A DNA stretch of 64,000 nt, taken from positions 1 to 64,000 of the forward strand of contig NZ_PQVF01000015.1 of assembly GCF_002920915.1 (NCBI RefSeq), written 5' to 3'. The position numbers were made by a program, and so were the translations under genes. The stretch is from Solitalea longa. Lineage in GTDB: Bacteria; Bacteroidota; Bacteroidia; Sphingobacteriales; Sphingobacteriaceae. Positions 661-50,093 of the stretch are shown in pieces. Under the pieces are notes generated by a model. That model saw only the letters and a list, made by a program, of their open reading frames with translations, was not told where the DNA came from and searched no databases. The first letter of the stretch is position 1. Every line of letters starts with the position of its first letter.

Positions 661-704
661 TTGATTATCATCAACTGGCAACAAATTAATAGTGGATAAT
701 TTTG
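661..704 (+). promoter_or_regulatory. FNR/CRP-type box and -7 element of the focA-pflB promoter
   Basis: Bases 661-674 read TTGAT-TATC-ATCAA, a perfect match to the FNR-family consensus TTGAT-N4-ATCAA. A Bacteroidota -7 element, TAATTTTG, lies at 697-704. If transcription starts about 5-6 bases after it, the box centre (667.5) is near -42, the usual place for a class II activator. No good TTG -33 element is seen, which fits activator dependence. The downstream genes are anaerobic fermentation genes. The site is seen; the regulator is inferred. Confidence 0.7.
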
Positions 705-33221: not shown

Positions 33222-33546
33222 AACTGAAAAGGCTTTTCCTTTTTTAACTACACTTAGCCACTTTAGCTATCAACACTTAAATCATTCATAAAAAGCCGAT
33301 TGTGTTTTTTAAATTTTAATGGCTGATGAATAAAATATACATTATAAGAAATTTTAATTACTATAATTAACTAAAGCATCATAAAGGTAAACAAACCGCA
33401 CTAATTAAACATTCTCATTATCAAAGTGTTATTTTTACAATAATTGATTTTTATCAGTTTTTTTGAATAAAAGGCATGTTACTTTTGTAGTGTTCTAAAA
33501 ACGGAACAACATTTGAATTTTAGTTATAGTCTCAAATTATATAGTT
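33222..33546 (+). promoter_or_regulatory. AT-rich leader with the promoter of the small gene at 33547
   Basis: This gene-free 325 bases is very AT-rich. It contains a -7 element TACTTTTG at 33480-33487, identical to that of the MFS gene (39099). No textbook -33 TTG at 18-20 bases spacing is evident. It gives a leader of about 55 bases before the ATG. Confidence 0.5.
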
Positions 33547-33735
33547 ATGAAAGCATCGTCTTCAACATTCAGCGCCGACATGAAAATCTCCAAATCAGGC
33601 AAATCATCTACTAAGTATGCACAACAGACTTATGACTATCTAAAATATTTACTAGGAAGAAAGTACCAGAAATACGGTCCAAGTGCAGCAATGGTTTACG
33701 ATAATAATTGCGATTATTTTTGTAACGCCGACTAA
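33547..33735 (+). CDS. Small protein with a two-cysteine C-terminus, unrecognised
   Basis: A 62-residue protein. The first 25 residues are Ser/Thr/Lys-rich (MKASSSTFSADMKISKSGK...), the middle is an amphipathic helix with many tyrosines (YAQQTYDYLKYLLGRKYQKYG), and the tail ends in NNCDYFCNAD, with cysteines C55 and C59, CxxxC. It has no signal peptide. Its own promoter before it and strong terminator after it suggest a real gene. I do not recognise the family. Its layout (polar leader, compact Cys tail) resembles a modified-peptide precursor, but no modifying enzyme is nearby. Confidence 0.6.
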   Translation: MKASSSTFSADMKISKSGKSSTKYAQQTYDYLKYLLGRKYQKYGPSAAMVYDNNCDYFCNAD

Positions 33736-33765
33736 ACAAGCTTTTTTAAATAACCTTTCATATGT

Positions 33766-33799
33766 AAACGCGTCCCGAAATTCGGAACGCGTTTTTTTT
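33766..33799 (+). terminator. Strong terminator after the small gene
   Basis: Stem of 12 pairs in 13 (AACGCGTCCCGAA against TTCGGAACGCGTT) followed by eight T residues. Confidence 0.92.
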
Positions 33800-47264: not shown

Positions 47265-50093
47265 TTATTTATGATTTAATCTTTCTTTTAAAAACTTGCC
47301 TGTATAGGAATGTTCCGATTTAATTAAGTCTTCCGGAACACCTTCAAATACCAAATTACCTCCCTTTTCTCCGCCCTCTGGCCCGATATCGATGATCCAA
47401 TCGGCGCATTTTATCACGTCCATATTATGTTCGATCACAATAATGGTATTACCCTGTGCAATCAATGCATCGAAAGATTTCATCAGTTTATTGATATCAT
47501 CAAAATGCAATCCCGTGGTGGGTTCATCAAAGATAAATAAAGTATGATGAGGATTATGGCCTTTCACCAGGAATGATGCCAGTTTAATACGCTGTGCCTC
47601 TCCTCCTGATAAGGTATTTGATGATTGCCCTAGTTTAACATAGCCCAAACCAACATCCTGCAAAGGCTGAATCTTCGAAGTGATCTTTTTCTCTTCCACA
47701 AAAAACTCCAAAGCCTCGTCAATACTAAGATCGAGAATTTCGGAAATATCTTTTTCTCTGTATTTTACATCGAGAACATGTTGTTTAAACCGTCTTCCGC
47801 CACAGGTTTCGCAAGGCAAATAAATATCTGCCATAAACTGCATTTCAATTTTCACTTCTCCTTCACCCTGACACGTATCACAACGTCCGCCTTCAACATT
47901 AAACGAAAATGCCGATGGCTTTAAGCCGGATGCCTTTGCAGCCGATTGAGAAGCGAATAAGTTTCGGATTTCATCATATGCCTTAACATACGTCACCGGA
48001 TTGGAACGAGAGGAACGGCCAATCGGATTCTGATCGATCATTTCAATCTGGGCCACCTTAGAAATATCTCCCGATATATTGTTAAAGGCTCCGCTCTGCT
48101 CTCCGGTAAAATTACCGATAGCTTTTTGCAAAGCGGGATAAAGAATACGCTTTACCAAACTTGTTTTGCCCGACCCGCTTACGCCTGTAATACAGGTTAA
48201 GGTATGCAGCGGAAACTTAACGCTTATATTTTTAAGATTGTTTTCCCTTGCTCCCTCAATTTCTATATAATCTGCCCATTTGCGTCGCTGGGCAGGGATA
48301 GCAATTTCTTTTTTCCCCGACAAATACTGACCCGTTAAACTATGTGTATCGGTTAAGATGGCGGCAAAATCTCCTTCAAACACCAATTCTCCACCATTAA
48401 TGCCAGCCCGGGGCCCTATATCGATCAAGTGATCGGCAGCAAGCATGATCTCTTCTTCGTGTTCAACCACTAAAACCGAGTTACCAGCATTACGCAGCGA
48501 TTTTAAAACCCCGATTAAACGATGAGTATCGCGAGGATGCAAGCCTATGCTTGGTTCGTCTAAAACATAAACGGAACCGACCAAACTACTTCCCAGGGAT
48601 GTAGCCAGGTTAATGCGTTGAGACTCTCCTCCCGACAAGGTATTTGATAATCGATTTAAGGTTAAATAACCCAATCCAACATCATTTAAAAATCGTAAGC
48701 GATTTTGAATTTCAATCAGCAAACGTTTAGAAACCTGAGCGTCATGTTCGTTCAATTGAATCTCTTCAAAAAACTTCGAAGCTTTTTCCAAAGACATTAA
48801 CACAATATCAGTGATCGATTTTCCGGCAATCTTCACATAGCTGGCATCTTTTCGCAAACGGCTACCCTTACAATCAGGACAAACTGTTTTACCTCTGTAT
48901 CTGGAAAGGATTACCCGATACTGAATTTTATAAGTTTGAGATTCGAGATCTTTAAAGAAGTCATTTAAACCACCAAAGTATCGGTTACCGGTCCATAGCA
49001 ATTCCTTTTCTTCCTCAGTTAGTTCGATATATGCCCGATGAATAGGAAAATCAAACTTGGCCGCATTCTTAATCAAAGCCTCATTCCATTCCTTCATCTT
49101 TTCTCCACGCCATGGAGCAATGGCACTGTCATAAATAGATTTCGATTTATCCGGAATCACCAGATCAGGATCTATACCGATCACACTTCCGTATCCCTCA
49201 CAGGTTTTGCAAGCTCCGTATGGGTTATTAAAGCTGAAAAACTGTGGCGTTGGCTCCTCAAAACGCATTTCATCCAACTCGAACCGGTCGCAAAAATGCC
49301 TTTCAATGTTTTCATCTGTAGCTTCATCTTTATATTGAACATACGCATCTCCCTTGCCTTCAAAGAAAGCGGTTTGAACCGAATCCGAAATTCTGTTTAA
49401 AGTATCTTCTTCCCTATCCACAATAATTCGGTCGACTAAAATCCTTAATTCTCCCTCCTTTAATGGATGATTGGCGTCAATAGATTTATCTTCTAATAGA
49501 TCTTCAATTTTTGAAACACTACCGTGATAGGCTACCCGTTTAAAACCTTTTTGCAGTAAAACAGCCAGTTCTTCCTTCAGGGCGCGGTTATTATGAGGAT
49601 GTAACGGACAAAAAACATTTACCGCTGTATCATCGGTCAATGATAAAATAAAATCAGTTACGCTAGTCACGCTGTCGCGCTTAACCTCCATCCCTGAAAT
49701 TGGCGAATATGTTCTTCCCACCCTTGCAAAAAGCAATTTCAGATAATCATAAATTTCAGTAGAAGTCCCTACTGTAGAGCGGGGATTTGACGTGTTTACT
49801 TTTTGTTCAATGGCAATTGCCGGGGCTATACCTTTGATATAATCAACTTCGGGTTTATTCATTCGGCCCATAAACTGGCGGGCATAAGCAGATAAACTTT
49901 CCACATAACGACGTTGGCCTTCGGCATATAATGTATCAAAGGCTAAACTTGATTTGCCTGACCCCGAAAGGCCGGTTATTACCACAAGTTTGTTCTTAGG
50001 AATGGCCACATCCACGTTTTTTAAATTGTGAACTCTGGCCCCTTTTATCACTATGTGCGTTTTCGCACTGATCTCGTCAATATTTTTACTCAT
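47265..50093 (-). CDS. uvrA: UvrA excinuclease subunit A
   Basis: DNA damage-recognition ATPase of nucleotide excision repair. I chose ATG 50093 (MSKNIDEISAK), which gives 942 residues; the extra 20 upstream residues are not family-like. Two ABC ATPase modules each have Walker A (GLSGSGKSSLAF, GVSGSGKTSL) and signature (LSGGE) motifs, and zinc-finger cysteines appear as CKTCEGYG, CPDCKG, CDTCQGEG and CETCGGRR. Normal length. Confidence 0.97.
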   Translation of the reverse strand: MSKNIDEISAKTHIVIKGARVHNLKNVDVAIPKNKLVVITGLSGSGKSSLAFDTLYAEGQRRYVESLSAYARQFMGRMNKPEVDYIKGIAPAIAIEQKVNTSNPRSTVGTSTEIYDYLKLLFARVGRTYSPISGMEVKRDSVTSVTDFILSLTDDTAVNVFCPLHPHNNRALKEELAVLLQKGFKRVAYHGSVSKIEDLLEDKSIDANHPLKEGELRILVDRIIVDREEDTLNRISDSVQTAFFEGKGDAYVQYKDEATDENIERHFCDRFELDEMRFEEPTPQFFSFNNPYGACKTCEGYGSVIGIDPDLVIPDKSKSIYDSAIAPWRGEKMKEWNEALIKNAAKFDFPIHRAYIELTEEEKELLWTGNRYFGGLNDFFKDLESQTYKIQYRVILSRYRGKTVCPDCKGSRLRKDASYVKIAGKSITDIVLMSLEKASKFFEEIQLNEHDAQVSKRLLIEIQNRLRFLNDVGLGYLTLNRLSNTLSGGESQRINLATSLGSSLVGSVYVLDEPSIGLHPRDTHRLIGVLKSLRNAGNSVLVVEHEEEIMLAADHLIDIGPRAGINGGELVFEGDFAAILTDTHSLTGQYLSGKKEIAIPAQRRKWADYIEIEGARENNLKNISVKFPLHTLTCITGVSGSGKTSLVKRILYPALQKAIGNFTGEQSGAFNNISGDISKVAQIEMIDQNPIGRSSRSNPVTYVKAYDEIRNLFASQSAAKASGLKPSAFSFNVEGGRCDTCQGEGEVKIEMQFMADIYLPCETCGGRRFKQHVLDVKYREKDISEILDLSIDEALEFFVEEKKITSKIQPLQDVGLGYVKLGQSSNTLSGGEAQRIKLASFLVKGHNPHHTLFIFDEPTTGLHFDDINKLMKSFDALIAQGNTIIVIEHNMDVIKCADWIIDIGPEGGEKGGNLVFEGVPEDLIKSEHSYTGKFLKERLNHK

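Follow-up and report, generated by a model that had tools for sequence, protein, structure and literature searches.

A genus-restricted small-protein gene with a putative FNR-type promoter in Solitalea longa

The small gene and its transcription unit

The stretch of DNA analyzed here (the window, 64,000 nt) is contig C7 of the 4.5 Mb genome of Solitalea longa. It contains a gene for a 62-aa protein, and the features discussed below are as follows.

662 to 704, forward strand: second FNR-type promoter in the window, TGATTATCATCA-N23-TAATTTTG, upstream of focA (formate/nitrite transporter, 762-1631)
33444 to 33457, forward strand: FNR/CRP-type palindrome TTGATTTTTATCAG, matching 9 of the 10 positions of TTGAT-N4-ATCAA
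33480 to 33487, forward strand: -7 element TACTTTTG, matching the Bacteroidota sigma-A consensus TAnnTTTG
33492 to 33546, forward strand: 5' untranslated region of 55 nt, from the start predicted at 33492 by the -7 rule (PMC6847099)
33547 to 33735, forward strand: ORF of the 62-aa small protein (ATG at 33547, stop codon at 33733-33735)
33766 to 33799, forward strand: intrinsic terminator (hairpin plus T run); each of the four species has a hairpin at the corresponding position

Translation of the ORF gives MKASSSTFSADMKISKSGKSSTKYAQQTYDYLKYLLGRKYQKYGPSAAMVYDNNCDYFCNAD, a 62-residue protein ending NNCDYFCNAD, as the first-pass annotation of this DNA had described. The protein has a mass of 7.0 kDa and is basic (predicted pI 9.1), with a GRAVY of -0.8 and no hydrophobic stretch in its sequence. 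An AlphaFold model, computed with the four orthologue sequences as input, contained a single helix (residues 21-36) at low confidence (pLDDT 51). Given this poor model, much of the chain may be disordered.

Each of the four Solitalea genomes, namely that of the window, S. agri (G029), G004 and G046, has an orthologue. The orthologue of S. agri, the closest named genome, is 90% identical. Comparison of the window ORF with that of S. agri revealed 26 substitutions, distributed as 6, 3 and 17 over codon positions 1, 2 and 3, with dN = 0.056, dS = 0.78 and dN/dS of ~0.07. Indels relative to the more distant Solitalea species are multiples of three. The hairpin at 33766-33794 has a folding energy of -15.4 kcal/mol (z = -3.9), which was equaled by none of 200 shuffled sequences. 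The hairpins that follow the stop codon in the four species differ in sequence, and range from -15.4 to -18.4 kcal/mol, with z between -3.6 and -8.5. The occurrence in four of four genomes, the third-position bias, the dN and dS values, the indels and the post-stop hairpins together place the ORF beyond chance. By these comparative measures, it is a genuine protein-coding gene under purifying selection.

The locus was thus confirmed as a small gene that stands by itself, with a -7 element and a strong terminator of its own. The functional unit starts at about 33417, and the stretch from 33222 includes unrelated intergenic DNA. Window neighbors encode a YbaK-type editing protein, LeuRS, FtsX and UppP, and an MFS transporter gene lies ~5 kb off. 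In three species the gene on the upstream side encodes the YbaK-type protein, and in G046 it encodes a DEAD-box helicase. On the downstream side, the window and G004 have leuS; a PLP-enzyme-like gene lies in between in S. agri, and a gene for a 239-aa lipoprotein-like protein occupies this place in G046. Since the neighbors differ between species, the 62-aa gene does not belong to a conserved operon.

Distribution, conserved core and variable tail

A single-sequence search found no orthologue in any of 397 other Sphingobacteriaceae genomes, and a profile search that covered the order (401 genomes) and the class (395 genomes) yielded only weak matches, none of which was convincing as a homologue. 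No credible match was found in Pfam, NCBIfam, PHROGs or PDB sequences. The earlier statement that the protein had not been described before holds, as it belongs to no Pfam, NCBIfam or PHROGs family. Literature searches on FNR-controlled small proteins and on the FNR regulons of Bacteroidota brought up no mention of the gene. A mobile or phage origin was rejected, as no relatives were found in viral contigs or plasmids. No paralogues were found in the genome, including the paralogues with variable tails beside radical SAM or transport genes for which the first-pass annotation had proposed a search.

Two weak matches were examined and rejected. A segment of a 966-aa protein in the window (49686-49826, reverse strand) weakly matches the small-protein profile, and the match recurs in ~70 genomes. 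These ~70 weak matches fall at the same place of one ~940-aa protein, presumably UvrA, a name given by eye. That protein shares a YDYLK-like helix with the small protein; the recurrent match was judged to be chance or compositional and was rejected as homology. The FEKKY domain model (NF052319) scored 15.8 bits on one of the four orthologues, below its cut-off of 26, and did not match the other three. The match of this model in the genome is to a different, 232-aa frame.

Among the four orthologues, the invariant positions cluster in residues 23-51, with the outline KY..........DY.K.L.G.K..KYG.....VY. This core comprises an aromatic, lysine-rich predicted helix and a YG segment. The C-terminal tails of the four species read NNCDYFCNAD, DNCTYFCNND, VDTCNS and ESYEHCYYCNAD. 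Cys55 and Cys59 of the window protein lie in this variable tail, the least conserved and fast-changing region. The tail cysteines form CxxxC in two species and CxxC in one. The G046 tail has another Cys and a His in addition to its CxxC, and the G004 orthologue has a shortened tail with one Cys and retains the core. The first-pass annotation had made conservation of the two cysteines in relatives a test of its reading. Two cysteines are indeed present in three of the four orthologues, but their spacing changes and the pair is not invariant, so the outcome speaks in part against that reading. As judged from the four sequences, the conservation of the protein lies elsewhere than in its CxxxC tail.

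FNR-type promoters in Solitalea

The -7 element TAnnTTTG of Bacteroidota occupies positions -12 to -5 (PMC6847099, PMC9723704). TACTTTTG lies 59 nt 5' of the ATG, and placing its G at -5 predicts a transcription start at 33492. No canonical -33 TTTG was found at the usual spacing before TACTTTTG. The best functional clue at the locus is the FNR-type site TTGATTTTTATCAG, which was absent from the first-pass annotation. It is centered at -41.5 relative to the predicted start, which is where FNR and CRP act to activate promoters of class II.

The 130 bp preceding the ATG contain 7 differences between the window and S. agri, none of which falls in the first 52 bp (33417-33468), the part that covers TTGATTTTTATCAG. 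For contrast, synonymous divergence is 0.78 in the 62-aa gene and 1.4 in the neighboring ybaK-like gene (dS). The FNR-type site is exact at the S. agri orthologue, and the G046 orthologue is preceded by TGAT-N4-ATCA-N23-TANNTTTG with one mismatch (3485920-3485962). At the G004 orthologue, neither the FNR site nor a -7 element is recognizable, and the protein core is kept. The loss of the site in G004 suggests that FNR control is not universal.

A regulon set was compiled from genome pattern searches. The pattern TGAT-N4-ATCA-N(20-26)-TANNTTTG gave 13 matches in the genome and 1 in the reversed control, and 12 of the 13 had a spacer of exactly 23 bp. With the spacer fixed at 23 bp, there were 12 matches against 0 in the control. 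Genes downstream of exact matches include ccoS-ccoN, a FixI/CcoI-type copper ATPase, focA, fhs, and genes for a fasciclin protein and a YhbP-like protein. A version with one mismatch precedes hemN, and in G046 also nrfH. The same promoter is found at the S. agri orthologues of focA, ccoS-N, ccoI and the YhbP-like and fasciclin genes, and at ccoI in G004.

The genome contains three Crp/Fnr genes, whose products have N-terminal cysteines. One of these lies directly before ccoI, beside the cco cluster, and encodes a protein with an N-terminal CKNC-x8-C and a later Cys, which can be aligned to an FNR-type regulator whose structure is known. The promoter pattern, the genes behind it and this regulator are signatures of an oxygen-sensing FNR regulon; we infer the regulator that binds the sites. 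The pattern was also well above control in a set of 60 genomes, drawn mostly from the family and class, so the architecture itself is not new. The FNR-type architecture apparently extends more widely in Bacteroidia.

Further loci in Solitalea carry promoters of this type. Tandem ORF-poor repeats of ~200-320 nt each follow an FNR-type box, TGAT-N4-RTCA-N23-GATATTTG (one-mismatch version), and end in a conserved terminator hairpin. There are 3 copies in the window genome (G000:C5:91266-92483; L071 1267-2484), 5 in S. agri (L073 611-2859, on G029:C5), and 1 each in G004 (L078 530-869) and G046 (G046:C1:855304-855635). The repeats were absent from other genera among 151 genomes searched, and no Rfam family fits them. 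They look like a candidate family of FNR-activated sRNAs, for which E. coli FnrS offers a comparison.

In three Solitalea species, a small protein of 45-47 aa (MRQLRKVLNKYSAFFLCVILVAFII...), which resembles a single-pass membrane protein, begins ~20 nt past an FNR-type promoter (L047, G000:C35:251989; L053, G004:C1:3001882; L077, G046:C1:2774679). The G000 and G004 sequences are 38% identical, and no NCBIfam family matches the protein. Two FNR-type promoters located 223 nt apart (G000:C23:122037 and 122260; L072 1038-1303) lie upstream of a gene for a 332-aa exported protein, with an S. agri counterpart (L057). The stretch between these twin promoters contains no convincing ORF. FNR-type promoters with similar spacers (ATCATATT...TACATTTG) were found at L038 (G000:C11:28587), at L074 736 and 1049 (G029:C16:40735 and 41048) and at L058 (G046:C1:3808288). 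No convincing ORF lies downstream of these in G000 and G029, and they may mark a non-coding FNR target.

The pattern TGAT-N4-ATCA, 23 bp, TAnnTTTG provides a definition of the Solitalea FNR-type regulon from sequence alone. This definition brings in other uncharacterized small genes, together with the candidate tandem sRNA family.

Interpretation and comparison with known systems

We propose that the 62-aa gene is probably a stand-alone member of an FNR (oxygen-limitation) regulon that encodes a small protein. Because the FNR site is shared with genes of low-oxygen respiration, the protein would most likely be made when oxygen runs out. The gene product is best read as a genus-restricted, basic, cytosolic small protein, induced on oxygen limitation. 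In the proposed mechanism, a fall in oxygen would allow an FNR-like Fe-S regulator, for which the cco-linked protein is the best candidate, to bind TTGATTTTTATCAG. The regulator bound at -41.5 would then activate RNA polymerase at this promoter, which has no -33 element, and the protein would remain in the cytosol. Tentatively, and with the odds against this particular step, the core (residues 23-51) may act on a partner as part of the change to growth at low oxygen. This partner may be acidic, for example RNA, the ribosome or an acidic protein face. The tail cysteines would contribute no more than an accessory metal or redox feature. A bolder version is a long shot: a lineage-restricted, soluble microprotein under FNR induction would retune a respiratory enzyme, a metal-handling enzyme or translation as Bacteroidota pass from aerobic to microaerobic conditions, and its cysteine tail would be a switch that depends on oxygen or metal.

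The promoter evidence bears directly on whether the FNR-like site could be coincidental, or controlled by another Crp/Fnr paralogue that senses NO or redox state, leaving an orphan gene. The loss of the site in G004 and the presence of three Crp/Fnr genes in the genome are compatible with this explanation, but the 12 matches against 0 at fixed spacing and the retention of the site at the same place in two further species make it improbable. A redox- or metal-responsive microprotein, as the first-pass annotation had suggested, would use its tail cysteines to bind a metal (Fe, Zn, Cu or heme iron) or to form a disulfide, and would matter at oxygen limitation, for example in metal supply to the cbb3 oxidase. 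Co-regulation with the copper and heme genes ccoI and hemN fits such a role, as do the presence of a cysteine pair in the final ten residues of three of the four orthologues and the CxxC, extra Cys and His of G046. The motif changes from CxxxC to CxxC to a single Cys across species, and the inconstant cysteines weaken the reading: the tail is the least conserved region, G004 keeps the core with one Cys and a short tail, and two Cys by themselves seldom form a stable site. We consider this explanation unlikely.

The conserved middle and variable tail are also the pattern expected of a peptide precursor (RiPP-like or a secreted signal), in which residues 23-51 would be the leader and the variable Cys-bearing end the core peptide. 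This proposal, also made in the first-pass annotation, is not supported. The sequence contains neither a signal peptide nor a GG site; no radical SAM, YcaO, lanthionine, protease or peptide-export genes were found nearby; the neighbors change with species; and the gene has no paralogues in the genome and no Pfam or NCBIfam family. A precursor is accordingly very improbable. Equally remote, or slightly more so, is an FNR-activated small RNA as the functional product, the ORF then being incidental or serving a minor second role. A length of ~300 nt, a promoter and terminator of its own, and a regulon that seems to include true non-coding RNAs would suit an RNA. The strong third-position bias and low dN/dS argue for the protein instead, the transcript folds no better than its shuffles (z = -0.44), and no Rfam family scored above its gathering score. 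The reading as an FNR-regulon gene for a small protein is therefore the one we retain. Orphan small proteins usually remain 'hypothetical'; here the promoter offers both a condition to test, oxygen limitation, and a gene that probably exerts the control.

Several known systems share features with the 62-aa protein. Similarity to FEKKY domain proteins extends to the sub-threshold match of one member only. Like RiPP precursors of Bacteroidota, the protein combines a conserved part with a variable end that bears Cys; unlike them, its gene lacks a leader motif, modifying or export genes, and paralogues. CcoS, CcoM and CydX belong to the same size class, and Solitalea ccoS has the same promoter architecture. 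These are single-pass membrane proteins, whereas the 62-aa protein is basic, predicted to be soluble, and without a hydrophobic segment. As a target, this genus-restricted small protein is not known from other FNR regulons. A further parallel is with the FNR/FixK regulons (ccoNOP, ccoI/fixI, hemN, focA, nrfA). The Solitalea core promoter differs from theirs in being of the Bacteroidota -7 type, TAnnTTTG, but the palindrome TTGAT-N4-ATCAA, the -41.5 position, the companion genes and the FNR-like regulator adjoining the cco cluster are all shared with them.
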